A model generated the notes under the pieces. That model did no database searches. It was given only the letters and a program-made list of their open reading frames with translations, and was not told the DNA's origin. Shown in pieces: positions 29,761 through 59,783 of a stretch of 64,000 nt of DNA. The DNA comes from Verrucomicrobiaceae bacterium E54 (GTDB lineage Bacteria; Verrucomicrobiota; Verrucomicrobiia; Verrucomicrobiales; Akkermansiaceae), in assembly GCA_022548915.1 (NCBI GenBank), contig JAKZES010000026.1, forward strand, positions 1 through 64,000, read 5' to 3'. The number at the start of each line of letters is the position of its first letter. Within the stretch, counting starts at the first letter, position 1. The position numbers were made by a program, and so were the translations under genes.

Positions 29761-32544
29761 TCACTTCGACTCGCGCCCGCCGGACCGGGGAACACCCGTA
29801 TCGAAGGTGATGCCGACCACCTGTTCGAAGGGGCCGGGATGGTTCGACGTCGAGATCGTGGTGCAGGTCACCTCGAAGGTGTAGCCCGGGCGCAGGTCGG
29901 TCAGGTCGAAGAACGCGACGTCGAGGCCCTTGCCGGTCCATTCGTGCACCGGCGTGGTCGCCGTGGCGGTGCCACCGAAAGTCTGGCGGAGGGTGTAGGT
30001 GGCGGTGTTGGGGCCGCCCATGACGTCGAAGAGGACGCCCACGCGCAGGACTTCTCCCTCTGGGATCTCCTCCGTGATCTCGAAGGTCACCAAGGGGGCG
30101 CTGGTCTCTCCCGCATTCGCCTTGGCGTCGTGCAGGACCCCCTGGGTGGTGTCCTTGCCCGCAGGATCGAGCGGGTCGTCCCAGCGTCCGTGGGCATTGG
30201 CATTCGGAGCGACCTGGGCGGTGGTGGCGTAGGGTGGATCCGACACCGCATTCCCCACCTGGCCCACCCGCCAGCCATCGGTGCCCAGAATGTGGTCGCC
30301 GTCGACATCCAGCGGCTTTGGCGGCGAGGGATTGCGCCAGCCGACGCCCGGATCGTCCTCGGGGGACTCGATGTCGAACTGGGTGTCGACGTAGGTGATG
30401 GTCGCGTATTTTGCGGTCGCCGGGGTGGCGAAGCTCCACGCTTCGGCTCCACGGGTCCCGAGAAAGGCGTTGCCCGAATTGTCCCTGATGGCGGTGCCCT
30501 CGATCTCGACGTAGAGGTCGGTTCCAAGCGGCAGGTCGGCCACCGGGTTGATCGTGATCGTGTCGCCCAGGTAGGTCAGGCCGTCCGGCGGGTCGTCGAC
30601 ATCGAAGCTTTCGACCACGGTGCCGTCGGAGCGACGGATGTGAATCGCGCCGCTGCCGAAGCCGATGTTCTCCGAGAAGGTGATCACGAGATTGTCGGCG
30701 GGAAAGAAGTCGTCGGTCCCCGGCGGCGGAACCAGCGAGGCGATCACCGGCGCGGTTCGATCCGGCACGACGGTGGTGAAACTCCATGCCTCATCGCCGC
30801 CGAACCCCGCGAACGGGTTGCCGGCGAGATCGACGATGGCGGTGGCGTCCACTTCAACGGAGTAGGTCGTCGATTCCTCCAGATCCTCCGCCGGGTCGAT
30901 CGTCAGCGTGCCTTCGGTCAAGTCCAGGCCGCTGCCGGGCGATCCGACATCGAAGCTCTGGACCGGGGTGCCGTCGCTTCGGCGAAGGTGGATCTTGCCA
31001 CTGCCGAACACGACATGCTCATCGAAGACCAGGATGAGGTCGCGACCCGGACGGATCTCCGTGGCCTCACGCGGCGGGCTCACGAACTTGATCCGAGGTG
31101 CGGTGGAGTCCGGCTTCTCGGTCACGGCCTTGGGCGACCGGGGAGACGGACCGGCAGCTTTCGACTCGGCGGTGAAGCGGATCTCCGCGAGGCCGGTCCG
31201 GTGCCTTTCCCCCTTCCAATTGCGGTTGACCTCGAAGCGCACGTAGCGAACGCCCTCGCCGGGCAGCGGGGTCCCCGCGACCGTCGCCAGGTCGAAGCCG
31301 GTGTTCGGCGTGCCGGTGGCAGGCGCCCGGGGAAACTCCACCGGACCGTCTCCGAGGCGGATCCAGTTGGCGGCCTCCGCCCCCTCGGGATCCCCGGGAA
31401 AGGCGACGTTGGAAACATAAACGTCCGCCGTGCGAATGCCGGCGTCGGTGTCGTCATCGACCTTCAGGTTCCAGACGTGGATCGACTCAAGTTCGTAGCT
31501 GGCACCCAGGTCCCACTGGATGAACGAGTCCGAGGGATCGATCCTCTCGGTCATCCAGCCCGCGTTCTTCCCGCTCCCGTGCTCGCCATTCTCCAAACCC
31601 GAGCCATCGACCGTGTGGTTCGGATGCCATGCCGGGTGGCCCTTCTGATCAAAGGTGGAGAAGCTGAGGGAACCATCGGAGGAGCTGACGATGATCGCCT
31701 CGCCATCGATCACTCCACCCGCCTTGGTGGAGGTCTCGTCGCCGGTCCCTGAGAGCTCGGTGGGGCCTGCCGATTGTGGATCCCCTTCGAGCGTGTTGAG
31801 GTAGGCCTGGGCATAGGCATGGCCCAGATCGATGTATCCCTGGCCCGTGAAGTGGAGGTTGTCCTTCTGCATCTCCATCCCGTCCGTATCGATCAGATGG
31901 GCCTTCGGATCGGCGGCGGCGACGTATTCCTGCGCCGTCCGGACCGCCTCGACCGGGCGGGCGGTCTGCAGCAACGACAAACGGCTGAAGAAGAAGGGCA
32001 GGTCCTCACCCCAGCGCGAGCGCATGTCGGCGATCAGGGCTTGCAGATCGGCCTCGTACTGGGCCGTGGTCCGGAGGTTCCAGGCGTCGCGTTCCCCCTG
32101 CGTCCAGAGGATGCCGACGATCTCGTAGCTGTGCCCGGACCGGGTGAGGGCTTCCAGGGCGATCTCCACCACGTGCTTGAGCCGGGTGTAGCTCCTCCCA
32201 TCCTCGAGATTCCACTCGTTCCACAGGCTGGTGCCCCCGTCGGAGTGCTTGATCAGGTAGAAATTCTCGCGAGGAAGCGCATCCGCGATGGCGCGGCCGA
32301 AGGTGACCTCCGGACCAAACACACGCCCGCTCCCGGGCTTGAGCCTGGAGAACTCGGATCCGCTGTAGAGCAGCACGTCCTCCTGCCGCTGCTGCAGATC
32401 CTCGGGCAGGGCCTCCAGTTTGGAGTCCGCGCCATACATGTTCGACTGCCCGCCGAGGATGAAGACCTTGTAGTGCTCGGCCTGCGCGAAACCGGCGACA
32501 AGGGCGACAAGCGCCAGGGTCCAGGTCTTGGGAGTGTTTTTCAT
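29761..32544 (-). CDS. Secreted GQSN hydrolase (sialate O-acetylesterase-like) with Ig-like domains
   Basis: The 927-aa protein has a signal peptide (residues 1-22). The SASA/CE6 domain begins HYKVFILGGQSNM with the nucleophile S34, has WTQGERDAW and ends with the DNLHFTGQG histidine block near residue 235. A discoidin-like domain follows (about 310-450, FIQWDLGASYELESIHVWNL), then two Ig-like Big_5 domains (about 480-690, each ending in W-SF-T) and a C-terminal beta domain of about 230 aa. The expected role is removing acetyl esters from an extracellular glycan. I used ATG 32544; an ATG 3 codons earlier is possible. It is transcribed toward the accessory island and has no downstream partner. 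Confidence 0.82.
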   Translation of the reverse strand: MKNTPKTWTLALVALVAGFAQAEHYKVFILGGQSNMYGADSKLEALPEDLQQRQEDVLLYSGSEFSRLKPGSGRVFGPEVTFGRAIADALPRENFYLIKHSDGGTSLWNEWNLEDGRSYTRLKHVVEIALEALTRSGHSYEIVGILWTQGERDAWNLRTTAQYEADLQALIADMRSRWGEDLPFFFSRLSLLQTARPVEAVRTAQEYVAAADPKAHLIDTDGMEMQKDNLHFTGQGYIDLGHAYAQAYLNTLEGDPQSAGPTELSGTGDETSTKAGGVIDGEAIIVSSSDGSLSFSTFDQKGHPAWHPNHTVDGSGLENGEHGSGKNAGWMTERIDPSDSFIQWDLGASYELESIHVWNLKVDDDTDAGIRTADVYVSNVAFPGDPEGAEAANWIRLGDGPVEFPRAPATGTPNTGFDLATVAGTPLPGEGVRYVRFEVNRNWKGERHRTGLAEIRFTAESKAAGPSPRSPKAVTEKPDSTAPRIKFVSPPREATEIRPGRDLILVFDEHVVFGSGKIHLRRSDGTPVQSFDVGSPGSGLDLTEGTLTIDPAEDLEESTTYSVEVDATAIVDLAGNPFAGFGGDEAWSFTTVVPDRTAPVIASLVPPPGTDDFFPADNLVITFSENIGFGSGAIHIRRSDGTVVESFDVDDPPDGLTYLGDTITINPVADLPLGTDLYVEIEGTAIRDNSGNAFLGTRGAEAWSFATPATAKYATITYVDTQFDIESPEDDPGVGWRNPSPPKPLDVDGDHILGTDGWRVGQVGNAVSDPPYATTAQVAPNANAHGRWDDPLDPAGKDTTQGVLHDAKANAGETSAPLVTFEITEEIPEGEVLRVGVLFDVMGGPNTATYTLRQTFGGTATATTPVHEWTGKGLDVAFFDLTDLRPGYTFEVTCTTISTSNHPGPFEQVVGITFDTGVPRSGGRESK

Positions 32545-32570
32545 GGGATGCAACGTGGGCGATGGGACCG

Positions 32571-32646
32571 TTTGTGGCCGGGCCTTCCAGGCCCGTCGCC
32601 CTCCATGGAATGAAACTTGGCGACGGGGCTGGAAGCCCCGGCCACA
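32571..32646. repeat. Inverted pair of REP-like hairpins (GTGGCCGGG family)
   Basis: Two elements face each other: 32571-32598 and 32617-32646. Both read outward as GTGGCCGGG(C/G)CTTCCAG followed by the complementary arm and GTCGCC. The single element at 3722-3748 belongs to the same family. The pair sits between two secreted-enzyme genes and resembles a BIME. Confidence 0.75.
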
Positions 32647-32649
32647 ATT

Positions 32650-35600
32650 TTACTGCTCCTCGACGCGGAAGAACGCTCTCGGCGACCCGGAGAGCGGAGC
32701 CGGCATACCGAACGCGTGCTGGGTGGAGGAACCCTGAGATTCGATGTCAGTGGACACCGCGTGCGGGAAGCCCTGCAGATCTCCGGATCCCATGATCCGG
32801 TAGGTCTTACCGGGGCTCGAGGCCCAGGTCAGGTCACCGCCCGCCGGTCCCACCTGCGAACCGAGCATCCTGAGCTGGTTCTCGAAGATGCCGACCACCT
32901 CGGTATCGTAGTTCGTGTAGCTCGTGTAGGTGCCTCGGAACCAGACGACGCTGCGGTCGTAGCCGTGGTTCTCCGGCACGATCGGGCGGAGGTTGTCGCT
33001 CGTCGAACCCACCGTGACCGGCTGCCAGGAGAAGGTCAGGCCGCCGTCGGTTGTGGTGCCCTGCCAGATTTCGTAGCGATCATCCGTCGCCAGCGGCACG
33101 TTGTTGAGGTCTCCCAGGTTGAAGGGATCGGCGGCGTTGGTGGAGATGTAGATGACGTTGGGGTTGTCCGGATCGATGGCCATCCCGCCACCATAGTCAT
33201 CTTCGGAGGAATAGAGGCCTCTTCCGCCATGGGCGACGAAGCGCCGCTGCCACTCCGTGCCGGTCCATCTCGCATAGTAGTAGTAGATGCGGTCGTGGTT
33301 CCAGCCGCTGCCGGTGACGTTGTCCACCTGCACCTGGAAAGCGCAGACCGGATGACCGTCGGCGCCGTAACAGATGTCCCAGGTCCAGCCGCGGCCGTTG
33401 GGGATCCAGTCGTCGGGCCCCTCCTCCGGACCCCAGGCCGCTGCGGAGTAGGTGTAAACCTGGGTGCCACGCTCACCGGAGTCGTGGTCAAGCGGCAAAT
33501 CCGCGAAGGACTTGATGATGCTTCCATCCGAGGCCCGGAAATTGCCACCTTGGTAGTGAAGGTGGTAGATCGAGTTGTTATCGTTCCGGGGGTGCCCGTC
33601 GGTGTAGATCAGGTCGATCCGGTCGGTTCCATTGGATGTGTATTTCGGATAGGGCCGGTCACTGCCACCACCCCGGTCGATCACGTGGATCTGCGGGCCG
33701 AAGGTGGCCCCATTGTCGTCGGAAATGGTCAGGGTGGGATCCCAGTTGATGGCCCGGCTGAAGTGATAGATACGGTCGGATTCCCCGGTTAGTCGATAGG
33801 TGTTTGCGTAAGAGGTGCCGTAGGTCGATATCTCAGGGCCCCAGTCGCCGATCGAGGCGGGTTCGGTCACGGTGGAGAGGCGGCGGTAGGCGCTTCCGCC
33901 GTGCAGGGAATAGACGACCATCAGGCGATTGTCGGGAAGAACCGTGATGGACGGATTGTTGTGGTCATCGACCTGGGTGAATCCGGAAAGCTCGGTATGG
34001 GTGGTGGCGAGGGTGGCCGGATCGAAGCGGGAGATGCCGACCTTCCCGTTCTGCTTGACGTATCCGGTGTAGAGCTTGCCGAGGTGCCAGATGGACCGCT
34101 CGTCGTTGAACCAGGTCCAGACCCCGTCGGGGGCGAGCTGGAAGATATTTCCCGCCAGCAGGGCATTGGGGTCGGTGTTGTCCGTCGGGTCGGTGTTGTT
34201 CGCGACCTCGAGGCCGTCATTGATCCCGTCCAGGTCCGAGTCGGGATTGACCGGACTGGTGCCGGTGTCGGCGGCATTCACGAAGGTGTTCGTGTTCGTT
34301 TCAACGCCGTCGAGCAGGCTGTCACCGTCCGTGTCGTCGTCGAGGGGATCGGTCCCGGTGTCCGAGGCGCTGACCCAGATTCCCGTGTTGGTTTCCACGC
34401 CATCGAGCAGACCGTCGTTGTCGCTATCCTCATCCAGCGGATCGGTCCCGTTGGCGAATTCCTGGGCATCGTTGGCGCCGTCGGCATCGAAGTCGGTCAC
34501 CGCGGGTGCGGCTCCCGTACCCATGACATCGGCGAAGCCGGTGACGCTGTCGTTGGGATCGGCGTCGATGATCGCCTGCTCGTAAAAGTCCGGGAGGCCG
34601 TCTCCATCCGTATCCTGGAACAACTGGTAGGAGGCCCCGTCGAACCAGACGCGCTCGGTGCCGAGACCGCCATTGCCGTCGTCATCGACGAAAAGCACGA
34701 TCGCACCCGATCCATCGGCCACCGCCGTACCCACGTATCCGCGCAACCCGACGCGATCGGTATTGATGAAGCCGGTCAATTCGGCATGACCCACGGTCCT
34801 CGGGGGGACCACCAAGGGGTCGCTTTCAGCGGTGAATGTCGTGAAGTTGGTCCCATCCAGCGAAGCGCGAATCCCCGCACGCGGATTCGAAGCCGGATTC
34901 GGGATGATATCCCCGGTCACCGGGTCGAGGGTGTATCCAAAGCGGATGTAGTTGACGTAGACGTCGTACGTCGCCCCCGGGCTCAGGCCGCCGAGGGTCA
35001 TGGCCAGGCCGACCGCATCCTCCCCGCTGTCCCAGGCCTCGAGAATAGTCACGCCTCCCTCGCCAAAGCCGTCGCGCTGGCGCCAGAGATTGTCCGAGCT
35101 GTTGCTGCCGGTGGTTGCAAACGGATCAACGAGTGGGTCGACGCTGCTGACATTGCCTAAATCTCCGGCAACCGAAACAAAGGTGAGGGCCGCATTCGGG
35201 TTGCCGACCAGGATATCCAAAGTCGCGGTCACTGGAGTGGGGATCACGCCGTCGGTGACGCTCACGGTGAAGGCGTTGGGGCCGAAATCTCCGCTGGTCG
35301 GCGTGCCGCTCAGGGTGCCGTCGCCGGCCACATTCAACCAGGCCGGACCGCTGACCTTGGCATAGGTCAGGGGGTCTCCGTCGCTGTCGGTCGCGCTGCC
35401 GTCCAGCGTCCCGGAGTAGGCCACGCCCTGGGTCGCGTTGGCACCGGTGATCGGATCGACGGTGAAGACGGGTGCGGCGTTCGTGTCAGTGACCAGAATC
35501 CTCAAGGTTGCCTGGTCGGGAGGCGAATTCCCGTCCGTCACGCTGACGATGAAATCATTCGTGCCCAGATCACCGATTTGCGGCGTCCCGGTCAGCTCGC

Positions 35601-36711
35601 CATTGCCGGCCACGCCCAACCAGGCCGGGCCGCTGATCTTGAGGAAGGTCAGCGGGTCGCCGTCGTCATCGCTGGCGGTGCCCACCAGGGTGCCCGAGTA
35701 GGGCACTCCGACCCTTCCCGTGTTGCCGATGACCACTTCGGCGGCGAAGGCCGGCGCGTCGTTGGTGTTGATCACCGTGATGTCGAGCGTGGCCTGGGTG
35801 GGCGGAGCGATGCCGTCGCTGGCACTCACGGTGAAGCTGTTGGCTCCCACGTCCGCATTCGTCGGCGTGCCGCTCAGCGTGCCGTCGCCCGCGACGGACA
35901 GCCAGGCAGGCCCACCGACCTTGGCATAGGTGATCGGGTCCTCATCGGCGTCCGTGGCGCTGCCGGCCAGCGTCCCGGTGTAGGCCGAATCCTCCGTGGC
36001 GTCCGTGCCGGTGATGGGATCGACCGTGAAAACCGGTGCTGCATTGCCACTGCCGCCCCCTGTGATGCTGAAGCCGTTCACCAAAGCGAAAGCCCCGCTG
36101 CTGCCCGCACCGTCCACAGACGTGTTTGTAAAGCGGAACTGCACATCCGCGCCCGTCGCCGTGAAGTCGAAGCTGGCAGTGACTGGACCCGAGGCATTCT
36201 CGGCAGCTTGTCCGGCACCGCCACCCGCGTAATTGACGAGGTCAAAGGCAGGCACCACATCGGTGAAAGATGCACCATCATCGCCCGAGAACTGGATCTT
36301 CATCTCCCCGGTCTGGTCTTCATGGTCCAGGTGCCAGCTCGTGAACGTGTAATTACCGGCTGCCAAGCCGGCGATGTCGATGGTGATGTAGCCGCCGGGC
36401 CCCGTGCTTGATTGACGCTGCCCCCACCAAGTTTGGGACATGCTCGCAAGAGGACCGGCATAGCCGTCGTTCCCTCCGCGGTTGATGGACCGCAGGGTGG
36501 TGCCCGCGTTGATGCCCGTGCCAGGTGCGCTAAGCGTCAGCCCCGCGATCGACAGATCGGACGGAAGCGAGTTGTCTCCGGACTCCCAGTTCGTGAAGCC
36601 CGTCTCGGATGGTGCGCCTGAGCGGGTGAGATTGATGCTGACGTCCACGGCATGAGACTGAAATGCTGACGCTGCGAAACAGAATGCGAGGAAGAGACTT
36701 TTTTTGATCAT
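32650..36711 (-). CDS. Large secreted BNR_4 beta-propeller protein (putative polysaccharide lyase or glycan-active enzyme)
   Basis: It encodes 1353 aa from ATG 36711 with a signal peptide. Order: a beta-sandwich module (VSINLTRSGAP..., about 20-215) shared with the next gene upstream; three cadherin-like repeats (about 220-500, each VFTVDPITG or AFAAEVVIG up to ATLDI); a CBM-like domain; TSP3 calcium-type repeats (DTDGDGLPD, DSDNDGLLDGVETNTG); and a C-terminal BNR_4 propeller (about 865-1300, WTWFNDERSIWHLGKLY, QVDDHNNPSITVLPDNRLMVVYS). It ends RAFFRVEEQ. BNR_4 includes the ulvan lyases of PL24 and PL25, but specificity is not assignable here. Confidence 0.75.
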   Translation of the reverse strand: MIKKSLFLAFCFAASAFQSHAVDVSINLTRSGAPSETGFTNWESGDNSLPSDLSIAGLTLSAPGTGINAGTTLRSINRGGNDGYAGPLASMSQTWWGQRQSSTGPGGYITIDIAGLAAGNYTFTSWHLDHEDQTGEMKIQFSGDDGASFTDVVPAFDLVNYAGGGAGQAAENASGPVTASFDFTATGADVQFRFTNTSVDGAGSSGAFALVNGFSITGGGSGNAAPVFTVDPITGTDATEDSAYTGTLAGSATDADEDPITYAKVGGPAWLSVAGDGTLSGTPTNADVGANSFTVSASDGIAPPTQATLDITVINTNDAPAFAAEVVIGNTGRVGVPYSGTLVGTASDDDGDPLTFLKISGPAWLGVAGNGELTGTPQIGDLGTNDFIVSVTDGNSPPDQATLRILVTDTNAAPVFTVDPITGANATQGVAYSGTLDGSATDSDGDPLTYAKVSGPAWLNVAGDGTLSGTPTSGDFGPNAFTVSVTDGVIPTPVTATLDILVGNPNAALTFVSVAGDLGNVSSVDPLVDPFATTGSNSSDNLWRQRDGFGEGGVTILEAWDSGEDAVGLAMTLGGLSPGATYDVYVNYIRFGYTLDPVTGDIIPNPASNPRAGIRASLDGTNFTTFTAESDPLVVPPRTVGHAELTGFINTDRVGLRGYVGTAVADGSGAIVLFVDDDGNGGLGTERVWFDGASYQLFQDTDGDGLPDFYEQAIIDADPNDSVTGFADVMGTGAAPAVTDFDADGANDAQEFANGTDPLDEDSDNDGLLDGVETNTGIWVSASDTGTDPLDDDTDGDSLLDGVETNTNTFVNAADTGTSPVNPDSDLDGINDGLEVANNTDPTDNTDPNALLAGNIFQLAPDGVWTWFNDERSIWHLGKLYTGYVKQNGKVGISRFDPATLATTHTELSGFTQVDDHNNPSITVLPDNRLMVVYSLHGGSAYRRLSTVTEPASIGDWGPEISTYGTSYANTYRLTGESDRIYHFSRAINWDPTLTISDDNGATFGPQIHVIDRGGGSDRPYPKYTSNGTDRIDLIYTDGHPRNDNNSIYHLHYQGGNFRASDGSIIKSFADLPLDHDSGERGTQVYTYSAAAWGPEEGPDDWIPNGRGWTWDICYGADGHPVCAFQVQVDNVTGSGWNHDRIYYYYARWTGTEWQRRFVAHGGRGLYSSEDDYGGGMAIDPDNPNVIYISTNAADPFNLGDLNNVPLATDDRYEIWQGTTTDGGLTFSWQPVTVGSTSDNLRPIVPENHGYDRSVVWFRGTYTSYTNYDTEVVGIFENQLRMLGSQVGPAGGDLTWASSPGKTYRIMGSGDLQGFPHAVSTDIESQGSSTQHAFGMPAPLSGSPRAFFRVEEQ

Positions 36712-37004: not shown

Positions 37005-37721
37005 TCAGCGCCGCCGACGACGAAGCAGCCCAAAGCCGGCTGTCACTCCAAGCACAAGGGCGGAGGAGGGCTCGGGGATGACGTCCAATTCGAAGCCGTT
37101 GACCACGGGGAAGACCCCTGAAACAGGTGATGAGCCCGGATCAACGGCCGTATTCGTGAACCGAAAATGCACGTCTGCCCCGGTCGAGGTGAAATTAAAA
37201 GATTGCACCACCGGAGCCGTGGCACCGTCATCCGTAACCGAGACAAGGTCGAAGGGCGAGACAACGTCGGTAAAGCTTGCCCCGTCGTCATCGGAGAACT
37301 CGATCTTCATCTGGCCGGTCTGATCATTGAAATCTAGGTGCCAGCTGGTGAAGGTGTAGCTCCCGGCCGACAAACCCCCGATCTCAATGGTGATGTATCC
37401 GCCAGGGGTCTGGGATCCTTCACGCTGCCCCCACCAAGTCTGATTAAGGCTCGGCAACACCCCGGCATATCCTGCCCCCGTACCCCGATCAATGGAGCGC
37501 AGGGTCGTGCCGGAATTGATGCCAGTGCTGGGCGCACTGAGGGTCAGGCCGGCGATCGACAGATTGGAGGGCAGATTGTTGTCATCCGACTCCCAGTTGG
37601 TAAACCCCGCTTCAGTTGGTGCGCCGGACCGCGTGAGGTTGATGCTGACGATGGCGGCCTGGCTCAGGCCGGCTCCGGTCGAGACGAGCAAGGCAGCGAT
37701 GAGAACATTCTTGGTGATCAT
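37005..37721 (-). CDS. PEP-CTERM protein made of one VSINLTRSGAP module
   Basis: The 238-aa protein has a signal peptide, then a single beta-sandwich module nearly identical in pattern to the N-terminus of the BNR_4 enzyme encoded just downstream (VSINLTRSGAPTEAGFTNWES, QTWWGQREGSQTPGGYITIEIGGL). It ends with a PEP-CTERM sorting signal (IPEPSSALVLGVTAGFGLLRRRRR). It has no catalytic motif. Exosortase would process it to an outer surface or matrix location. The ECF-like motif at 37791-37819 precedes it. ATG 37721 is used. Confidence 0.85.
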   Translation of the reverse strand: MITKNVLIAALLVSTGAGLSQAAIVSINLTRSGAPTEAGFTNWESDDNNLPSNLSIAGLTLSAPSTGINSGTTLRSIDRGTGAGYAGVLPSLNQTWWGQREGSQTPGGYITIEIGGLSAGSYTFTSWHLDFNDQTGQMKIEFSDDDGASFTDVVSPFDLVSVTDDGATAPVVQSFNFTSTGADVHFRFTNTAVDPGSSPVSGVFPVVNGFELDVIPEPSSALVLGVTAGFGLLRRRRR

Positions 37722-37825: not shown

Positions 37826-39871
37826 TCACTCAGTCCCCGCAAGGCGCCCGAACAGCTTCCCTCCGGCAGCCGCCCCCGAGTCGATGGTCGCGGTGACGGT
37901 ATTGAGCGGGCTGCCCGCCGCCACCGAGAAGGTGACGTTGCTGGTGGGCCCGCCGCTGGTGTCCGGCACCTCGACGCCCGTCGGCGACGGCGTCCAGGTG
38001 GAAAGGTCGCTGCTGTGCTGCACATACAGCTTCGCGGTTCCGCGGTCGGCGACCGGCAGGCAGTCGAAGGTCATCTGCAGGCCCCCACTGCCGTCTTCGC
38101 TGACGGTCGGCAGGGCGCCAGTGGCGTCGTCGTCCGGATTGGCCACGCCGAGCAGGAAGGCGATGCCGTCCTGGACACCATCGCCGTTGAGGTCACCCTC
38201 GAAGGTCACCGTGCCCGGCAGGGTGCCGGAGTCCGCCCAGACATCGAACGGCTCGGTGGGGGTGCCCGTCGCCGTCCGCACCTCGAAGTTGTCGAGGATC
38301 CCTTGCATCAACGTGTAGTTCGAATACAGGGCGATGTAGTTCTCATCGGTTCCGGACCAGAAAAAGCTGCCGGTCGCCACCGGGCTTCCTCCGTTGATGA
38401 AGGCCTCGTAACTCACCGTGGTGTTGGCATTGAAGTCGGAGAACCCATGGAAGCGCACCGAAAGCGTGCCACCGCCATTCAGGTTGATGGTCTGCTGGTA
38501 AACCTGTTGCCCACCGCGGAAGATTTTGACCTCCGTGGTGCCGGTCGGGTCGTAGCCGAAGAAGAAATCCGATGTGAACAAGGTCGGGGAGCTGGTTGAC
38601 CAGCCATCCAATTCTGCCTTGGAATTCCCCACCGCAATCCCGGAAAACCGGGTGCCGCCGCCGGAACCGGTGGCCCCGAGATCGACGGAAACCGTGAATT
38701 CCCCACTGCTTGCGATGGAGGAATCGATGAAGTTGTGATCGGGGTAGGCAAGCGAGTAGCCGCCGCCGCCGCCGCCCGACTCGCCGAGGCGCAGGGTATT
38801 CCCGGTGACGGTCGGTTCACCGGCACTCTTGACCTCGACCCAATCGAGGGTGCCCAGGGTGCCGGATTTCCCGGACGCTGAGGCGTTCAAGTCGCTGCTG
38901 TCGGGCCGGTTGAAGGTGTCGGCAAAAAGGGCGGGATCAAAGGCAGCGGTCGTGAAACTCCAGGAGGTGGTGTCGGTGATCCCGGCGTAGGGGTTGGTGG
39001 CAAGGTCGGTGATGGCGCCGGCGGGAATGTTGACATAATAGGAGGTGCTGAACGCCAGGTCAGCGGGCGGATCGATGGTGACCTTGTCGTTCGCGAAGGT
39101 CACGAGGGTGGAGTTGACGTCGATCGATGCCACCACGCTGTTGTCGCTGGCGAGGTGGATGGTGATATCGCCGGAGGCCCCGGCTTGGACATCTTCGTCG
39201 AATGTGGCCACCAGGCTCCCGGATGGCGGGGCGTCGGTCGCACCAACCGCCGGGTCGGTCGCGACCAACGTCGGATCCGTGGTGTCAGGCACATCAGCTG
39301 CAATCCCGAAACCATTCCAAATGAGCAAGCTCCTGGCGGTAATGGTACCGGAGATGGTCGCTTCGCCGTCTCCGTCGGCAGTCAGGGGCAAGGTAACAAA
39401 ATTGCTGGCAAACCCGCCGGGGCCGGAGTCATCCCAAGCCAGCGCAGCGCTGCCTCCATTGGTTGTCCACGTGTTTTCACCACCATTGTTGGCGTTGTCG
39501 CCGTCGTAGGAATACACCGTCACAATGTAATCCTCGTTAGGAGTCAAGCCGGTGAGCGTGAATGTGACGGGTCCAGTATGATAAGCGAAATCCCTGAAGA
39601 GATCGAAGAGCGGATCCGATGTAGTGAAGCCCTTCGGGATCATCTTATCATCACGTTCGCGAGTCGACGTAAAGGCCGACGCAGTGATGGTGATGCCGTC
39701 ACTTGTGGCTGATTCTGTGCCAATAACCCCAGTGTATCCGGCTTCGACCGGACCCGTGTTGGCAGGCTGCGGAACCACATCAGAACTGCCGTAATCAAAC
39801 AGTGCATCTGCATGCAGGCTTGAGGCACCGGCCATTAGGGAGGTCACGAGTGTGAGGTTGAACCATTTCAT
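37826..39871 (-). CDS. Secreted multi-domain non-catalytic protein with the NFNRPDS module
   Basis: The 681-aa protein starts at ATG 39871 with GGAG 8 bp upstream and a signal peptide. It has an N-terminal beta domain (about 25-190), an Ig-like Big_5 domain (about 195-300), then a module opening FADTFNRPDSSDLNASASGKSG (about 300-535) that is also the N-terminal module of the GQSN hydrolase at 49379-52060, and a C-terminal beta domain ending KLFGRLAGTE. No catalytic residues were recognised. It probably binds or displays on the cell surface or in the matrix. It may share a transcript with the small gene upstream. Confidence 0.75.
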   Translation of the reverse strand: MKWFNLTLVTSLMAGASSLHADALFDYGSSDVVPQPANTGPVEAGYTGVIGTESATSDGITITASAFTSTRERDDKMIPKGFTTSDPLFDLFRDFAYHTGPVTFTLTGLTPNEDYIVTVYSYDGDNANNGGENTWTTNGGSAALAWDDSGPGGFASNFVTLPLTADGDGEATISGTITARSLLIWNGFGIAADVPDTTDPTLVATDPAVGATDAPPSGSLVATFDEDVQAGASGDITIHLASDNSVVASIDVNSTLVTFANDKVTIDPPADLAFSTSYYVNIPAGAITDLATNPYAGITDTTSWSFTTAAFDPALFADTFNRPDSSDLNASASGKSGTLGTLDWVEVKSAGEPTVTGNTLRLGESGGGGGGYSLAYPDHNFIDSSIASSGEFTVSVDLGATGSGGGTRFSGIAVGNSKAELDGWSTSSPTLFTSDFFFGYDPTGTTEVKIFRGGQQVYQQTINLNGGGTLSVRFHGFSDFNANTTVSYEAFINGGSPVATGSFFWSGTDENYIALYSNYTLMQGILDNFEVRTATGTPTEPFDVWADSGTLPGTVTFEGDLNGDGVQDGIAFLLGVANPDDDATGALPTVSEDGSGGLQMTFDCLPVADRGTAKLYVQHSSDLSTWTPSPTGVEVPDTSGGPTSNVTFSVAAGSPLNTVTATIDSGAAAGGKLFGRLAGTE

Positions 39872-49260: not shown

Positions 49261-49378
49261 CGAGGGGATGAAGCTGGCTGCTTCGTGTGCGCTCTTCTTG
49301 TTTGTCATGACGAGATGGGGTTTCCGCGGTCGGGGTTTTCCGAGCTCCGGCTTCAGGATGGGGAATGGCATGCCGGGC

Positions 49379-52620: not shown

Positions 52621-55600
52621 TCAGGGTTTCACCACCGTGATCCGAACGAACAGGGCTTGGAGGTCGCCGATATTGCCATCGACCGCGTCGATGGTCGCCT
52701 TGTCGAGCGGGACGGTAATGTCCGCGCCGGTTCCCGGGTGCGATGAGTAGCTTGTCCAATCGGCGAGATTGGTGCTCCAGAAGATCTCATAGTCCCGGTC
52801 GGCGACCGTTGGCCAGGTGACCGAGAAGGTCGTGGCGGCATCCTGAGTGTCGATGACCCGGAAGACACTCCCAGGGTCGTTGGGATCGGTGCCGGCGATG
52901 CTTTCGGAGAGGTTGTCGGCACCGTCGCCGTCGTTGTCGAGAGAGGCGTCCTTGGGCGAGTCGCGGTCGAGCCCGTGGGTGGTCTCGAAGCTGTTGCTCA
53001 TGCCGTCGGCGTCGTTGTCGGGCTCGCGGCCATCGAGGGTGACGGCGCCGGTGGTGCGCAGCTGGTCGAGGGCACCCAGCAGGTCGCGGCCGGTCAGGCT
53101 GACCAGTTCCGCGCGGATGGCCGCGTCGCCGGTGAGGCCTGAGATGCGATTGTCGTCCTCGCCGAGGTCGACGGGCATCTCGAAGAGCTGTTTCGGCGTC
53201 CCCTGGTCGATCCCGACGGCGCTGGAGATCGTGCTGTTGTCCGAGTCCCACGAGGTGTTGTTGCCGCCGCCTCCGGTGGAATCGATCAGCTTCCAGCCGT
53301 CCGGGGTCTTGAGGGCGAGGTGCCCGTTGATCGAACACAGCACCACGCCGCCGCGCGCCTCGCCCGGCTTGCGCTGGCCGCGCAGAACGTTGAGGAACGA
53401 TTCCCCGTCCGGAGCCGTGCTGTCAGGCAATTCCTCGCCGAGGAATCCCGCGATGGTCGGAAAAATGTCCACCTGCGAGATGACCTCATCCGTAACCACC
53501 ATTCCGGCCGGGGCCTGGCCGGGCCAACGGACGATGAAGGGCACACGGGTGCCCCCGTCCCAGATGTCGCGCTTGGCTCCACGCAGGGGACCGTTGGCAT
53601 CGTCGCCGTTCCCCAGCGTGTTGCTCATGGCGGTCGTTTCGGGGCCATTGTCGGCGGTGAAAATGACCAGGGTGTCGTTGGTCATGCCGTTGTTGTCGAT
53701 CGCGGCGAGGATCCGTCCGATGCGGTCGTCCACCTCGGCCATCCAGCGCTGGTAGTCGTAGCTGCCGTAGGTGCCGGTGTTGAACTCGGGCGTGATCGCC
53801 CAGGGGAGGTGCGGCGAATGAAGTGCCACGTAGGCAAAGAACGGATCGGTGTCATTCGCGGCGACGCGTTCGTCGATGTAGCGTTCGAAGTCCGCGACCA
53901 GGACCGGGCCCGCGTCGATTTGCCGGTAGGAGGGATCCCCGAGGCTGGCGCGGGAGTCCTTCGGCCCGACGACGGTGGAGTTGAGATCGCCTGTTGTGAA
54001 CCACTGGAAGGTGTCCGAAGCGGTGGCATCCCGGAAGTAGCCCTTGCGGCCGTTGGGCAGCTTGTCCCCGTACTCGTTGCTGGGTCCCGAGTCTTCGACC
54101 CAGTATTGGACCACATCATCGTGCATGTAGACGTACGGCCCGAAGTTGATCGCCACGGGCAAGCCGCGGTAGTAGTCAAAACCGTTGTCCGTCGCATGAC
54201 CTTCGATGCGACGGGTCCAGTCCACTGCGGAGGGATCGCTTGGGTTGTTGGTGATCCGGTTGTTGGTCCCGGGCGCATACCATTTGCCACCCATGTGCCA
54301 CTTGCCGAACGCGGCGGTGTCGTAGGTCTGGGTCTTCAGGAACTCCGCCAGTGTGACATCGCTATCGAGAGGAATATTGTCGATGCCGCTCTTGAAGCCA
54401 TAGAAGCCCGAGATGCTCTGGAAGCTCCGCCAATTGTAGCGTCCGGTAAGCAGCGAGTAGCGCGAGGGCGTGCAGACGGCGTTGGCGGAGTGGGCCTGGG
54501 TGAAGGTGACTCCTTGATCTGCCAGACTATCGACATTCGGTGTCGGCGACGCGCTTGGGGTGCCGAACAGGTTGCCGTAGCGGGAGATGTCCCCGAATCC
54601 GAGATCGTCGGTGTAAATGATGAGGATGTTCGGCTTGGCCGGGCTGGGCGTGTGATCAGGGCAATCGTCCGGATCGTTCGGATTTGAACCCAGTGCGGTC
54701 TCGGCCTCGTCGCGGTAACTGTCGCCATCGGTATCGACGAAGGGAGCCGTGAAGCCGCTGTTCGGAGGCAGAGCATTCGGGTCGGTGCCCAGCGTGATCT
54801 CCGTGCCATCGTTGACTCCGTCACCGTCGGAGTCCGGCTCGTTCGGATCGGTGGGCTCGCCCGGTGGCGATCCCTTGACGCCCGCCGTCCATGGATTGAG
54901 CGTCCCGTTCACCTCATCGCCGTCGTTCAGGCCGTCGTCGTCCGTGTCGGAGTCCTGGGGATCGGTTCCCTCTTGGAACTCTTCAAGGTTGGTCAGCCCA
55001 TCGGGGCCGCCGTTGGCATCGTTGTCCAATGCGGCATCCGCCGGGTCATTCTTGTTCAGGCCATTGGCATCTTCCCACGAGTCCGGCATGTCATCCCCGT
55101 CGGTGTCCACCGTGGAAATGCCCTCGAGTGTTATGCGGCCCATGTTGAGCTGGGCACCCACTTCGCCCTGCATGCTGGCATAGATGCCCGCGGTCGCCAA
55201 ATCCGAGTAGGTCAGGTTTGAAAGCGTGCCGGTCTGGTTCAGCTCAGGGCTCAGGCCGGTTGACGAAATCTGCCATGTATCGTCAGCAAAGACGCTGATC
55301 CTCACGGTAAAGCCGTCGAGGAACGAGGCGTTGGGAGGCTGCGGAGTAGTGAGGTTCGAGGCTGTGACGCTCACGCCGCCGGTGTTCTCGGCCATGATAT
55401 GGGAGCCCCAGGAGGCAGAACCCGGGACGTAGCCGAAGCTGGTGGGATCATTGACCCAAAGGCTGTTACCCGCGGTGCCGGTGGCGCTGTTGCCCGAGAC
55501 CACACCGAAAAAGAGACCGTTGAAGTTGAGAGCTGCCACCGTGCCGGCCACACTCATTGAGTCCACCACGAAAGTGGCGGTGAATCCCGAGTAGGACGAG

Positions 55601-57792
55601 AGATCCACGGTGCTGCTGCTGTTGAAGCCGATGTTGTGGGAGTCCGCAGGTTGGGGAGAGGCCCTTTCCCCGGTGATGATGAGTCCGGTGCCGGTGTTGG
55701 CGCTACCCGCGACGAGATTATCGACGTTGTTCTCCACCACCTGGATGGCGGGGCCGACGTCCGTGCCGCCGAAGGTGTAGTCGATGAGGGTCGCACTGGC
55801 AGGCGGAGGCTCGACCGTGATCGCCGTGTCATCGACGATGGCCGCATCGGTGTTCAGCGGATTGCCTGCCGCGTCGTTCAGGGTCGCACCCGCGTTCACC
55901 TGGAACTCCAGCGTGCCGACGTTGTCCGGGGTGACCACCACTTCGATGACACCGGGGGAGGTCTCGGTAATTGAAAGGAAGCTGAGACTCACGTCACCGC
56001 CCGCATCCGAGAAGTCGGTGGGGTTGAAAGTGGTGTGATCCATGTCCTCGTTGAAAGTCAGCGTGTAGGTGATCGCCGTGCCCACCGCGACCGGTCCGCC
56101 CGACCGATCGTCGATGATGGCGCTTGGGGCGAGGGTTGGCGGGGTCGTGTCTCCCGACGGAACGAGGGCGCTCACCGTGATGCGGTCCACCGTGATGGAT
56201 TCGCCGAAGACATCGGTCCCCTGCAGGCTGACAAAGGGCGTCAGGTCCGTGGAGATGGCGGCGTAGTCGAGCATGCCGGCACCCGAAGTGATGAGGCTGC
56301 CGGAGCCATTCAGCTCGGTGCTGAGCCCGGTCGATGTCACTGCCCATGTATCATCATCAAAGACGCGGATGGTGACGGTGAAGCCGTCCTTGTAGGATGC
56401 ATCAGTGGGAGCGGTCCCGAGCGAGGTGTTGACCGAGTTGGCGTCGTTGCCCGTGCCATTGTTTCCATTGATCTGGCCCCCTTCCGCATCCTGCCGCACA
56501 AGGTTGGGGCCATAGCTGGCACCCCCAGCAAGGTAGCCGAAGCCGTGGGGATTGTTGACCCAGAGGCTGGTTCCGCCGGTATTATTGGCGTCGGTGCCGG
56601 ACACCACGCCGAAAAACAGACCGTTGAACGCCAAGGAGGAAACATCGACGTCCGTGGCACTGACCTCGAAGGTGATCTCGAATCCGGTCGCTGTTGGCTC
56701 GAGTGCGCCCACGTCGATGGAACTTGTCGCATTGAAGCCGTAATTGCTGTTGATAAAGTTCCCAGAAAAGCTGTTGCCCGGCGTGATGACTCCGGTGGAC
56801 AGGTCCGAGGAGCCACCGCTGCCCAGGCCGTTGGCCACCTGCTGGAAAGTCAGACCGCCCGTGTCGTTGGCCAGCCCGTCGAAGGTGTGGTCGATGAGGG
56901 TGCTTGTCGTTGTTGGAGGCGGCGGAGGTGGAGGATTGGCCTCCAATGACAACATTCCCGCGGCGAGGCCCTGACCGAGGGCGATCTGTCCGTTGTACTC
57001 GAAGTGGATGGCATCGCCGGCCCTGACCTGGAAGCCGTCGGTATTCACGAAACCGACCTGGTTCATGGCGGCGGCAACGGCTTCCTGGGCTTGCCGCACC
57101 CTGTAGGAACCTGTTCCGGGAGTGGTGATCTGTGCGCCGTATTGGCTGTCGGACAGTCCGCTCAGGACAAAGGGCGCGCTCGTTCCTCCAAAAAGGTCGT
57201 TCCGCACCCGATTGATCAGGTTGGTCAGGTTCGTCTCGTAGTTGACCGCGTTTCCGTCGGTGTCCGCTTCACCCTGGACCCAGATCATTCCGCCGAGCTC
57301 GTAGGTGTCACCGGCCGACGTCAGGGCCGCCAAGGCGGTTTGCACGGTGGAGACGAAGGTCGTGTATTGGGTGCCGCCAGAGGCCCATTGGGTGTGGAGG
57401 TTCGTCCCGCCTTCGGTGTATTTGATAAGGGCAATGTTGACCGCGGGGTCGTTGTCCGCCATGGCCCGCCCGAAGGAGACTTCCGGCCCGAATTCCCTTG
57501 GATAAACCGGACTGGTCGTGCCGTGACCGGATCCCGTGTCGAGGTCGATCCAGGCATCTTCGGTCAGGTGGCCGACATTGCTGACCGCCTGGGTCCGGTG
57601 CCAGTAGAAGCGGACATCGCTTTGCGCTGCGTTGTATGGGCTACCGAGCTGCGAGGCATCGCCCCGTCCATTGCCATTGGATTGGCCGCCCAGCAAATAG
57701 ACTCGGTAGTGCGCTCCATGCAGGCTGCCTGCAAGGTGGACGGTGAATAATGCTGCGAGAAGTGCCAGGCGTGTCGTGGAAGAAGAGGACAT
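52621..57792 (-). CDS. Secreted fusion of a GQSN esterase-like hydrolase and a type I sulfatase
   Basis: The 1723-aa protein has a signal peptide. Order: a SASA-like hydrolase (about 28-280, HYRVYLLGGQSNGNGRG, MIWVQGEADTDG); a proline run; a module opening LIDHTFDGLANDTGG (about 298-560); an Ig-like domain (about 565-690); a second related module (about 695-905, LIDYTFGGTDVG); a TSP3-type linker (about 910-1045); a sulfatase (about 1053-1590) with NILIIYTDDLGFGD and VCTPSRYSLLTGR, where C1107 in CxPSR is the residue converted to formylglycine, plus GKWHMGG and FTADNGPE; and a second TSP3 stretch with a beta tail. It would remove acetyl and sulfate groups from the same glycan. Start ATG 57792. 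Confidence 0.85.
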   Translation of the reverse strand: MSSSSTTRLALLAALFTVHLAGSLHGAHYRVYLLGGQSNGNGRGDASQLGSPYNAAQSDVRFYWHRTQAVSNVGHLTEDAWIDLDTGSGHGTTSPVYPREFGPEVSFGRAMADNDPAVNIALIKYTEGGTNLHTQWASGGTQYTTFVSTVQTALAALTSAGDTYELGGMIWVQGEADTDGNAVNYETNLTNLINRVRNDLFGGTSAPFVLSGLSDSQYGAQITTPGTGSYRVRQAQEAVAAAMNQVGFVNTDGFQVRAGDAIHFEYNGQIALGQGLAAGMLSLEANPPPPPPPTTTSTLIDHTFDGLANDTGGLTFQQVANGLGSGGSSDLSTGVITPGNSFSGNFINSNYGFNATSSIDVGALEPTATGFEITFEVSATDVDVSSLAFNGLFFGVVSGTDANNTGGTSLWVNNPHGFGYLAGGASYGPNLVRQDAEGGQINGNNGTGNDANSVNTSLGTAPTDASYKDGFTVTIRVFDDDTWAVTSTGLSTELNGSGSLITSGAGMLDYAAISTDLTPFVSLQGTDVFGESITVDRITVSALVPSGDTTPPTLAPSAIIDDRSGGPVAVGTAITYTLTFNEDMDHTTFNPTDFSDAGGDVSLSFLSITETSPGVIEVVVTPDNVGTLEFQVNAGATLNDAAGNPLNTDAAIVDDTAITVEPPPASATLIDYTFGGTDVGPAIQVVENNVDNLVAGSANTGTGLIITGERASPQPADSHNIGFNSSSTVDLSSYSGFTATFVVDSMSVAGTVAALNFNGLFFGVVSGNSATGTAGNSLWVNDPTSFGYVPGSASWGSHIMAENTGGVSVTASNLTTPQPPNASFLDGFTVRISVFADDTWQISSTGLSPELNQTGTLSNLTYSDLATAGIYASMQGEVGAQLNMGRITLEGISTVDTDGDDMPDSWEDANGLNKNDPADAALDNDANGGPDGLTNLEEFQEGTDPQDSDTDDDGLNDGDEVNGTLNPWTAGVKGSPPGEPTDPNEPDSDGDGVNDGTEITLGTDPNALPPNSGFTAPFVDTDGDSYRDEAETALGSNPNDPDDCPDHTPSPAKPNILIIYTDDLGFGDISRYGNLFGTPSASPTPNVDSLADQGVTFTQAHSANAVCTPSRYSLLTGRYNWRSFQSISGFYGFKSGIDNIPLDSDVTLAEFLKTQTYDTAAFGKWHMGGKWYAPGTNNRITNNPSDPSAVDWTRRIEGHATDNGFDYYRGLPVAINFGPYVYMHDDVVQYWVEDSGPSNEYGDKLPNGRKGYFRDATASDTFQWFTTGDLNSTVVGPKDSRASLGDPSYRQIDAGPVLVADFERYIDERVAANDTDPFFAYVALHSPHLPWAITPEFNTGTYGSYDYQRWMAEVDDRIGRILAAIDNNGMTNDTLVIFTADNGPETTAMSNTLGNGDDANGPLRGAKRDIWDGGTRVPFIVRWPGQAPAGMVVTDEVISQVDIFPTIAGFLGEELPDSTAPDGESFLNVLRGQRKPGEARGGVVLCSINGHLALKTPDGWKLIDSTGGGGNNTSWDSDNSTISSAVGIDQGTPKQLFEMPVDLGEDDNRISGLTGDAAIRAELVSLTGRDLLGALDQLRTTGAVTLDGREPDNDADGMSNSFETTHGLDRDSPKDASLDNDGDGADNLSESIAGTDPNDPGSVFRVIDTQDAATTFSVTWPTVADRDYEIFWSTNLADWTSYSSHPGTGADITVPLDKATIDAVDGNIGDLQALFVRITVVKP

Positions 57793-57976: not shown

Positions 57977-59023
57977 CTACTGCTGCTCCACCCGGTAGAA
58001 CGCCGCGTCCTCGGTCGCACCGGTGTCCTGCAGCTCGCCGGTGTCGGTTCCGCTCAGCGTGATGCTGTCCTGACTGTCCAGAGTCGAGAAATCCAGGGTG
58101 GTGGACTTGTTGAGATCGTAGGTCTCACCATCGGTCCCCTTGAACTGCACGGTCACGACATCGTTCGCCTTGGAAATCGACACGATCTCCAGTGTTCCCG
58201 GCACTGTCGTTTCGAGGGCGGTGACGGTGATGCGGTCTACTTCAATGGTTCCCTGATACTCGCCTTGCAAGCTGACGTAGGGCCTCAGATCGCTTGAAAT
58301 CGCGGCATAATCGAACATCCCCGTGCCTGTCGTGGTCAGACTCCCGCTGCCATTGAGGTCGGTGCTGAGGCCCGTCGAGGTGAGCGTCCAAGTGTCGTCA
58401 TCGAAAAGGGACAGGGTAATGGTGAATCCGTCCTGGAAAGAGGCGTCGTCGGGGGCCGTTCCGCCGAGGACCTTATTGACCGAGTTGCCGTCATTGGCGG
58501 CGCCACCCTCGGCGTCCTGCCGGACGAAATTGTCCTCGCCATAACCAAACTCGATGGATCCGCCGTCGCCGCTGCCGGCCACATAACCGAAGCCGTGTGG
58601 ATTATTGGCCCAAAGACTGGGGCCTGCGGTGCCGTTGGCGTCGCTTCCGGATGTCACCCCGAAAAACAGGCCGTTATAATAGAGGTCGGAAACGGCAACA
58701 TCCGTCGCACTCACCTCGAAGGTGATTTTAAAACCGTTGGCCGTCGGTGCAAGAGCACCCACATCGATCGGGGAAGAGGTATTGATTCCGACGTTGCTGT
58801 TGGGCGTATTCGCGGCCACCCCGGTCGTTGTGATGAGACCTGTCGAGAAATCGACGGAACCCGCACCACCCGCGCCGTTGTCGATTTTCTGGAAGGTGAG
58901 GCCCCCAATATCGTTGGCCAAGCCGTCGAAGGTTTGGTCGATGAGGACGTTGTCAGCAGGCAAGCTCGGGATGCCGAAGGCGAACGCAGCCAATGAGGCG
59001 AAGAAAGGGTTTTTGGCGATCAT
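57977..59023 (-). CDS. Secreted single-module protein with FYRVEQQ tail
   Basis: The 348-aa protein has a signal peptide and one copy of the LIDQTFDGLANDIGGLTF module (about 26-265) found in the sulfatase fusion encoded just downstream. It ends with a small beta domain (TYDLNKSTTLDFS...) closing in AAFYRVEQQ. It has no catalytic motif and no PEP-CTERM. I chose ATG 59023 (MIAKNPFFAS). Confidence 0.8.
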   Translation of the reverse strand: MIAKNPFFASLAAFAFGIPSLPADNVLIDQTFDGLANDIGGLTFQKIDNGAGGAGSVDFSTGLITTTGVAANTPNSNVGINTSSPIDVGALAPTANGFKITFEVSATDVAVSDLYYNGLFFGVTSGSDANGTAGPSLWANNPHGFGYVAGSGDGGSIEFGYGEDNFVRQDAEGGAANDGNSVNKVLGGTAPDDASFQDGFTITLSLFDDDTWTLTSTGLSTDLNGSGSLTTTGTGMFDYAAISSDLRPYVSLQGEYQGTIEVDRITVTALETTVPGTLEIVSISKANDVVTVQFKGTDGETYDLNKSTTLDFSTLDSQDSITLSGTDTGELQDTGATEDAAFYRVEQQ

Positions 59024-59105
59024 GGCTATTGGTGAAACGGGATGAGAGCGCACCAAGCGCTCCGAACAATCTTGGGAAAGACACCATCACGAACGGAGAC
59101 GCCCG

Positions 59106-59783
59106 TCAGGAACGCCGACGGCGAAGCAGCAGTCCGACCAGAGCGGCTGCGGAAAAGCCCGCAGCAGAGGGTTCGGGAACGAGCGTGACGGAATACGTGT
59201 TGTCTACCTCACTACCAAAGGCCGTTTGGACATCGCCCGCGAAGGCCAGCGTGTGCGATTCCGACGCGTTGGTGTTGGTGAAAACTTGGTTTGCTACCGA
59301 ACCCTCAACCCTGACCGAAGTTCCGACGAACGACCCAGCCCCGGACGTGTCTGAAAACACCAAAAATATGGCCTCGTCAGTTGGTAGCGCAATACTGGCG
59401 AAATTCCACGTCAGCGAGTCGCCGCTTGCGGCAGAAGCGGTGTCGATGGAGTTTGTCGATGAACCAAGAAAATTGAGATTCCCCGTCTCGACACCTGTCC
59501 CAAAATTGAGATCGTCGAAAACGGCAGTTCCGATGGTGTAAACATCGATATAGCCGGTCGTGGTACCACCTCCGCTTCCTCCTTTTGTGAGGGAGAAACT
59601 GCTGAGCAGGTTATCGGGAAGGGTGCTATCCACCTCAAAGGATTGTCCGTAGTTTCCGCTCCCGGAAGAGGCGCTGGCGCCATTGGCAGTCTGCGAGATG
59701 ATCGTCGCGGCCGACGCGGCATTTCCGCAGAACAAACCGGCGACAACGAGACCTTGGCGTAGGGAGGTGGGGCTAAATTTCAT
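59106..59783 (-). CDS. PEP-CTERM protein
   Basis: The 225-aa protein has a signal peptide (about 1-26), a beta-rich ectodomain (NYGQSFEVDSTLPDNLLSSFSLTKGG) and a PEP-CTERM tail (VPEPSAAGFSAAALVGLLLRRRRS). No shared module with the neighbours was recognised. The ECF-like motif at 59811-59840 starts 28 bp upstream of the ATG. Confidence 0.85.
   Translation of the reverse strand: MKFSPTSLRQGLVVAGLFCGNAASAATIISQTANGASASSGSGNYGQSFEVDSTLPDNLLSSFSLTKGGSGGGTTTGYIDVYTIGTAVFDDLNFGTGVETGNLNFLGSSTNSIDTASAASGDSLTWNFASIALPTDEAIFLVFSDTSGAGSFVGTSVRVEGSVANQVFTNTNASESHTLAFAGDVQTAFGSEVDNTYSVTLVPEPSAAGFSAAALVGLLLRRRRS

Follow-up and report, generated by a model that had tools for sequence, protein, structure and literature searches.

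Shared modules in a polysaccharide-degradation cluster

The first 64,000 nucleotides of contig JAKZES010000026.1 (C174) from Verrucomicrobiaceae bacterium E54, whose genome measures 5.9 Mb, constitute the window analyzed here. Pfam scans and BLASTP place a polysaccharide-degradation cluster on its minus strand, from position 64000 down to 29761. Read in that direction, the cluster encodes a FecR-type anti-sigma protein, a di-haem oxidoreductase (DHOR), a PEP-CTERM-like protein, a tail protein with a TFD module, a SASA-TFD-TFD-sulfatase fusion, an NFN-SASA esterase, a SASA esterase, a tail protein with a TTTGG module, the PEP-CTERM protein PEPb, the enzyme BNR4b, a truncated esterase scar, an NFN/Big_5 protein, the PEP-CTERM protein PEPa, the enzyme BNR4a and a final SASA esterase. 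The subject of this analysis is the set of four sequence modules, named after their motifs VSINLTRSGAP (VSINL), TTTGG, NFNRPDS (NFN) and TFDGLAND (TFD), that large enzymes of the cluster share with non-catalytic neighbors.

An earlier note on this DNA had claimed that each module type occurs on a large enzyme and on a non-catalytic neighbor, and BLASTP bears this out in all four cases. The VSINL module joins BNR4a (32650..36711; module 36064-36645, followed by Ig-like repeats, a BNR_4 domain and a C-terminal tail) with PEPa (37005..37721; module 37077-37658) at E 1e-83 and a module identity of 72%. The TTTGG module is found on BNR4b (40980..44978; module 44229-44915, then Big_5, TSP3, BNR_4 and tail), on PEPb directly upstream (45089..45910; module 45155-45838) and on a non-catalytic tail protein (45969..47582) that places it between an N-terminal domain and a tail domain (46195-46880). 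BNR4b matches PEPb at 87% (E 4e-120) and the tail protein at 86% (E 2e-103), with DNA identities of 90.4% over 676 bp and 88% over 632 bp, respectively. The NFN module lies at the N-terminus of a SASA-type esterase with TSP3 repeats (49379..52060; module 51320-51988) and within a non-catalytic protein of about 680 amino acids (37826..39871) made up of an N-terminal domain, Big_5, the module (38273-38929) and a tail domain; the two proteins agree at 59% over 272 amino acids (E 3e-88) and the modules alone at 67%. The fusion enzyme (52621..57792) comprises a SASA esterase, two TFD modules (56158-56904 and 55117-55791), TSP3 repeats, a sulfatase and a tail, and its partner (57977..59023) consists by BLASTP of a TFD module (58211-58957) and a tail domain without any Pfam match. 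The first copy matches this partner at 62% (E 9e-89) and the second at 39% (E 3e-35). The expected two TFD copies on the fusion are thus both present, with the second diverged to 45% identity with the tail-protein copy in a whole-genome module search. At E values of 1e-35 to 1e-120, chance similarity is ruled out as the source of the sharings.

The proposal that the small partner is a sorted surface protein holds for two of the four pairings, VSINL and TTTGG, and fails for NFN and TFD, whose partners are non-catalytic proteins without PEP-CTERM; the Pfam scan gave no such match in 37826-39871. PEPa scores 20.1 bits, or 20.8 with neighbors, against PF07589 in the genome-wide search (over the cut-off), 17.1 bits in the Pfam scan (below it) and 22.3 bits against TIGR02595 (over it). 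PEPb reaches 27.2 bits with the PEP-CTERM profile, over the cut-off, and its model places a helix at 258-269; the signal peptides of both proteins were judged by eye. The genome holds one exosortase gene (C196:2871-3623; PF09721, 170.6 bits).

The four window modules are almost private to the locus. Whole-genome searches at E<=0.001 returned no VSINL copy elsewhere, one NFN copy at 40% (C217), four TTTGG copies at 36-39% (C11, C44) and three TFD copies at 43-45% (C199), which rules out, for these modules, a genome-wide common domain that makes neighbors share by default. Among 60 family genomes, that of the window counted, the TTTGG module occurs in six and TFD in three; one genome (G036) gave a weak match in the same search. 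A single sequence family behind all four is ruled out as well by hhalign, which assigns the families a probability of relationship below 5%, although a common remote fold is possible. Since the families are unrelated by this measure, the arrangement of enzyme and non-catalytic partner arose more than once.

In line with the earlier note, the co-localized enzymes are of polysaccharide type: among the window proteins, Pfam identifies two BNR_4 domains, one sulfatase and four SASA domains. BNR4b, which we take to belong to PL27, matches the PDB chains 5muk, 4irt, 5mum and 5mvh (E 1e-50 to 5e-52) and the L-rhamnose-alpha-1,4-D-glucuronate lyase 7esk (E 1e-24), and weakly the short ulvan lyases. 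The structure closest to the sulfatase is the N-acetylgalactosamine-6-O-sulfatase 6s20. A reasonable guess for the substrate would be a sulfated and acetylated polysaccharide with rhamnose and uronate.

Further genes complete the cluster. Upstream lies the FecR-type protein (62912..64000), whose frame reaches the window end and which has no module in common with a neighbor. It is followed by the DHOR (59916-62789), with a weak CBM_4_9 match below the cut-off, and by the PEP-CTERM-like small protein (59106..59783). The motif of the latter was recognized by eye; the protein has no Pfam match, is not among the 58 PF07589 frames of the genome and shares no module with other proteins in the window comparison. 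An SGNH/SASA-type esterase without a shared module (47809..49407) is the source of the scar, a truncated duplicate of its 3' end located at the BNR4b 3' end (40526..41074); DNA at 40524-40884 and 47807-48167 is 88.6% identical over 361 bp. As the scar demonstrates, DNA with no obvious function is also duplicated in this region. The examined cluster ends with a SASA esterase bearing two Big_5 domains (29761..32544).

By eye, the C-terminal tail YxLxxSxDLxxW ... FYRV or LFxRL recurs on BNR4a, on the 57977-59023 protein, on L028 9795-10871 and on many partner proteins. By the same inspection it is present on enzymes and tail proteins and missing from PEP-CTERM proteins, and it is possibly a second sorting signal. 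Profile scans gave nothing over the cut-off for this tail; at the edge of the L028 tail, a phage-adaptor match falls below the cut-off. Past the end of the cluster, three segments (27413-27536, 28239-28388 and 29584-29731) are copies, at 84-90% DNA identity, of the coding sequence at the 3' end of a gene (25844-27565). An open reading frame (ORF; 28442-29362) that resembles, by eye, an AbiEii-type nucleotidyltransferase is flanked by two of the three, which are fragments. As copies of a coding end, these repeats of 120-146 bp are ruled out as recombination sites. The bacterial small signal recognition particle RNA (RF00169) lies at 9062-9156.

Concerted evolution of the TTTGG module

An orthologous operon in the congener G048 (locus L089, here G048a) encodes a PEP-CTERM protein, a BNR_4 lyase and then a protein of 883 amino acids that is homologous to the window 37826-39871 protein (57% over 490 amino acids). 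The lyase halves of the window and G048a enzymes are 88% identical, with a synonymous divergence (dS) of 0.79, and are sisters in the tree (100/99), whereas the modules on the same enzymes behave differently. Between window and G048a, the modules agree at just 58-63% with dS near saturation (1.3-2.8), and the stretch that follows the module (residues 281-400) at just 31%. Within an operon, the module of the PEP-CTERM protein matches that of the enzyme at 87% in the window (dS 0.23), 97% in G048a (dS 0.043) and 73% in the pair G048b (dS 1.1). In G048a, 667 of 671 bases are identical between the two genes, and the likeness ends at the module borders.

The module tree sorts its clades by operon: the window trio (100/100), the G048a pair (100/99), the G048b pair (95/89) and the L132 pair (92/86). 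Approximately unbiased (AU) tests reject both a clade of the window and G048a BNR_4 modules (8e-98) and a clade of the two PEP-CTERM modules (4e-4), so that ancestral duplication with vertical inheritance is ruled out for the BNR_4 operon. With the orthologous grouping rejected and the modules grouping by operon, the modules appear to have been copied within operons. The two operons agree in gene order, which makes gene conversion the simplest reading; duplication could instead have occurred repeatedly, or the modules could have been replaced in a matched way. The G048 protein of 883 amino acids bears an N-terminal TTTGG module where its window counterpart has another domain, which, judging by sequence, is a module swap.

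Recurrence, fold and carriers of shared modules

Sharing was also surveyed around PEP-CTERM genes in general. For the E54 genome, PF07589 matches at E<=1 gave 58 frames, 48 of them over the cut-off; for the congener G048 and for G011, which belongs to another genus, the limit was E<=0.01. Flanks of about 8-10 kb per side were taken where the contig allowed, giving 41 segments and 762 kb for E54 with the window included, and passengers (the proteins with the PEP-CTERM part removed) were searched against all segments. Matches within 10 kb were counted as near, and partners were called at >=45% identity over >=100 amino acids. A search of a further genome, G008, which lies outside the neighbor survey, gave 59 PEP-CTERM profile matches.

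In E54, 27 of the 58 PEP-CTERM frames have another frame within 10 kb that carries the same passenger (E<=1e-4). At the partner threshold the count is 17/58 (14/48 when limited to frames over the cut-off) against 9/359 control ORFs from the same segments (Fisher 3e-10), where 26 controls have far matches. At >=50% identity over >=100 amino acids, 23 segments are near and one is far, which rules out default sharing of common domains for the survey too, within the 762 kb sampled. Near segments lie on the same strand in 49 of 52 cases, far ones in 28 of 59, and two near segments are other PEP-CTERM frames. The 29 PEP-CTERM frames of G048 behave alike: 11 are partnered at any identity and eight at threshold, against 4/224 controls (4e-6). 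All 18 near segments there are on the same strand, two far matches reach the threshold, and nine near and no far segments reach >=50% identity over >=100 amino acids. For G011 the numbers fall to 7/37 at any identity and 3/37 at threshold (controls 3/249; 0.03); among these last, one frame belongs to a TFD pair (53-54%), and another has its partner in a frame of 63 amino acids that is probably broken. Pairing is a pronounced feature of the genus and a faint one beyond it. The control set is imperfect in that it contains spurious long antisense ORFs and excludes the sharers themselves. Counting the left-out sharers as positives yields lower odds ratios, 2.9 (p 0.002) and 4.2 (p 0.005), while assuming half of the controls to be spurious gives p values of 3e-6 and 4e-4.

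Across the two genomes of the genus, 25 PEP-CTERM genes are partnered at threshold, 19 with a downstream partner (17 within 300 bp, frame to frame) and 13 with an upstream one, some having both; the shared part of the partner is N-terminal, internal or C-terminal. In 14 of the 25, some partner has a catalytic Pfam match. These catalytic partners are sulfatases (C199, C247, C44 and G048 L114), BNR_4 enzymes (twice in the window and twice in G048), SASA/GDSL esterases (C242, C213, C11, G048 L103 and L117), an FAD oxidoreductase (C11) and a PhoD phosphatase (C111). Two multi-gene cases were also seen. At L079, an RCC1-repeat protein and a second protein (7900-10521 and 3850-5466) carry the LamG module, at 82-87%, of the PEP-CTERM protein between them. 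At L068/L027 (C11:29749-44055), one module family is spread over about 15 kb on two PEP-CTERM proteins, a tail protein and frames of 737 and 1488 amino acids.

The TTTGG module of PEPb, BNR4b and the tail protein has no Pfam match to a lectin, LamG or any other family, and the best hit of a PDB profile search to solved chains has E 0.75. An AlphaFold2 model built from 27 sequences reaches a mean confidence (pLDDT) of 85.5; Foldseek places legume lectins at the top (E 4.5e-6), and the VIA comparison gives Z up to 15.2 to ERGIC-53 and 15.3 to a C-terminal portion of galactocerebrosidase. The module is thus predicted to adopt the ConA/L-type-lectin beta-sandwich fold. The TFD protein model is poor (pLDDT 51), and its Foldseek list, lectins included, is a hint only. 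Three further paired modules overlap Pfam domains, namely LamG (C201 and G048 C1:3426323) and F5/8-type C (C213).

In loci of the genus, all three BNR_4 enzymes with a TTTGG module have an adjacent PEP-CTERM partner (window, L089 and L090). Carriers without a partner also occur in this module family, among enzymes, PEP-CTERM proteins and FecR proteins alike. In G030, of the same genus, and in G013, it lies on a FecR-match protein and is followed by LamG; the FecR match is over the cut-off in G030 and below it in G013. Sharing with neighbors also extends to FecR-like frames, which were found with a home-made profile of five sequences. At G048 C1:2566411-2571303, a FecR protein, a PEP-CTERM protein and a SASA esterase carry one module (FecR 58%/56% to the others, PEP-CTERM to enzyme 83%). 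At C242 of E54, the FecR, PEP-CTERM and enzyme frames have a common module at 37-62% (FecR at 37% and 41%), with the FecR gene on the opposite strand. One contig titled Acidimicrobiales (L123, JAHECQ010000459.1) holds two adjacent module-bearing frames, one of which starts like BNR4b; it is possibly mis-binned.

Locus-private modules and their possible role in glycan recognition

At the level of sequence, the sharing, its privacy to the locus, the mostly same-strand placement of the neighbors and the within-operon homogenization of PEP-CTERM and enzyme modules can be regarded as established. The reading we favor, with confidence about evenly balanced, is that a locus-private glycan-recognition module is reused on a surface protein, an enzyme and sometimes a sensor. 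The PEP-CTERM protein would presumably be sorted by the exosortase to the cell surface or matrix, and its module would bind the glycan that the locus handles. The surface protein may then capture the polysaccharide, the enzyme cut it and the sensor, where present, detect it. Copying within the operon, by gene conversion or re-duplication, could keep the specificities of the partners in step as the module diverges or is exchanged for another. The modules do look like binding domains, one being predicted as lectin-like and three others coinciding with LamG or F5/8-type C domains. The expectation that the pairing of enzyme and sorted surface protein would recur is borne out with unrelated modules in E54 and its congener, and weakly in another genus, usually on the same strand.

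Several observations weigh against a recognition module of this kind. A ConA-like fold is no proof of sugar binding, and a confident fold was obtained for just one of the four window modules, TTTGG. Pairing is not obligatory: at threshold, 41/58, 21/29 and 34/37 PEP-CTERM genes in E54, G048 and G011 are unpartnered. As for the proposed division between enzyme and surface protein, every partner is non-catalytic for 11 of the 25 genes (RCC1, Ig-like or fn3 proteins, or proteins lacking a match), and the module is also found on FecR proteins and alone. Pairing had likewise been expected in other genomes with the same enzymes, which stands for the same-genus loci and not beyond the genus, where a motif-pattern search of 2-8 kb upstream found a PEP-CTERM partner at none of four TTTGG-module BNR_4 loci (L127, L128, L131 and L135). 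Sharing with FecR is rare, as only 4 of 17 FecR-like frames share with a neighbor, one of them at 28%. Matching within operons is also incomplete. In G048a, homogenization has not reached the module of the protein of 883 amino acids, which is 67-68% identical to the other modules at a dS above 2; the G048b pair, at dS 1.1, is matched imperfectly. Finally, tandem repeats convert and duplicate mechanically, and the locus has a plain duplication scar.

These last points lead to the main rival, neutral local duplication, in which some copies gain or keep a PEP-CTERM tail, gene conversion homogenizes them and the likeness of the modules serves no purpose in itself. Besides the scar at 40524-40884 and the carriers that homogenization misses, it would account for conversion tracts that stop at module borders, where homology ends, for the patchy spread of TTTGG and TFD among the family genomes and for the near duplicates found for 9/359 control ORFs. 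The ratio of nonsynonymous to synonymous change (dN/dS), at roughly 0.35-0.44 for the module within two young pairs compared with 0.08 for the lyase half, suggests loose constraint. The ratio nevertheless stays below 1 and the frames are kept open. Moreover, the placement of a module-bearing PEP-CTERM gene beside a module-bearing enzyme gene recurs with unrelated families in two genera, and in the first two genomes PEP-CTERM genes are enriched under every control tried (odds ratios 2.9 to 21). On balance, neutral duplication is a serious alternative and a somewhat unlikely one.

Another way to read the matched modules is homotypic docking, in which like modules bind each other and the PEP-CTERM protein retains the enzyme on the surface or matrix. 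Likeness within operons despite divergence between species is what self-recognizing domains would show, and the top fold matches are legume lectins, which dimerize. However, a docking partner would be lacking wherever the module family stands unpaired on an enzyme, a PEP-CTERM protein or a FecR protein, and docking appears distinctly improbable. Least probable is the reading that the module serves secretion, folding or matrix assembly, so that partners would match because they take a common route and not because they bind a common ligand. The 11 of 25 genes with structural-looking, non-catalytic partners fit it, but the route of a protein appears to be signaled elsewhere (by PEP-CTERM in the small proteins and, as judged by eye, by the C-terminal tail on many partners), a general route domain is not expected to be private to a locus, and the position of the module in the partner varies.

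Glycan recognition by the shared module would work like the surface glycan-binding proteins and carbohydrate-binding module (CBM) enzymes of Bacteroidota polysaccharide utilization loci (PULs), without implying membership of that system. Both have clustered enzymes and a surface protein that is non-catalytic and bears a binding-type domain (SusD/E/F-type in PULs); an extracytoplasmic function (ECF) sigma factor with FecR is a further common element, at least at locus L028. The window differs in that the surface protein is of PEP-CTERM type and that binder and enzyme use the same locus-private, operon-homogenized module. No SusC/D match was found in the window proteins scanned from 29761 on, a genome-wide SusC/D search not having been made. 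Cohesin-dockerin pairs of the cellulosome also join an enzyme to a non-catalytic surface partner, although through two complementary domains, where here each side has the same module type; Pfam matched neither cohesin nor dockerin in the proteins scanned from the window and partner loci. L-type and ConA-like lectins such as ERGIC-53 and the legume lectins, together with LamG-type domains, share the predicted beta-sandwich of the TTTGG module (Z about 15 to ERGIC-53) but have only about 10-12% identity to it and leave no Pfam lectin match.

The small signal-peptide proteins with a C-terminal PEP-CTERM and the single exosortase resemble the known PEP-CTERM/exosortase system. Haft et al. (2006; PMC1569441) describe such proteins as typically having no discernible homology outside PEP-CTERM, with less than 10% matching Pfam, whereas here nearly half of the E54 passengers are common to a nearby frame. 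Outer-membrane proteomics of Akkermansia detected 9 of 23 predicted PEP-CTERM proteins (PMC4960237). Surface glycan attachment in the same family is also described for the type IV-pilus-like MUL2 system of Akkermansiaceae, which involves other proteins, and the term PEP-CTERM does not occur in that text (PMC13174399). In He et al. 2017 (PMC5615132), sulfatase genes of Verrucomicrobia metagenome-assembled genomes lie near pfam13385 carbohydrate-binding-module proteins. Literature searches among open-licence PMC papers listed none whose title or opening abstract lines set out such a pairing.

In the BNR_4 operon, adjacent genes evolve in concert, and the recognition domains of two proteins would stay alike while diverging between species. 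For many PEP-CTERM passengers, the pairing gives a testable partner and ligand, and the adjacent enzyme points to the probable glycan. It is also a candidate means of surface glycan capture in a phylum in which, according to a study of Thalassobacterium (PMC11980603), SusCD was reported absent from five Verrucomicrobiota strains. A broader and more tentative proposal, which we regard as possible and short of probable, is that Haloferula-type Verrucomicrobiota assemble polysaccharide loci that do without SusCD, each operon centering on a private lectin. Copies of this lectin would sit on the anti-sigma sensor, the exosortase-sorted surface protein and the enzymes; gene conversion would keep them matched, and all would be exchanged together. 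If true, such loci would form a specificity system that matches itself, with sensing, capture and cutting all switching sugar at once.

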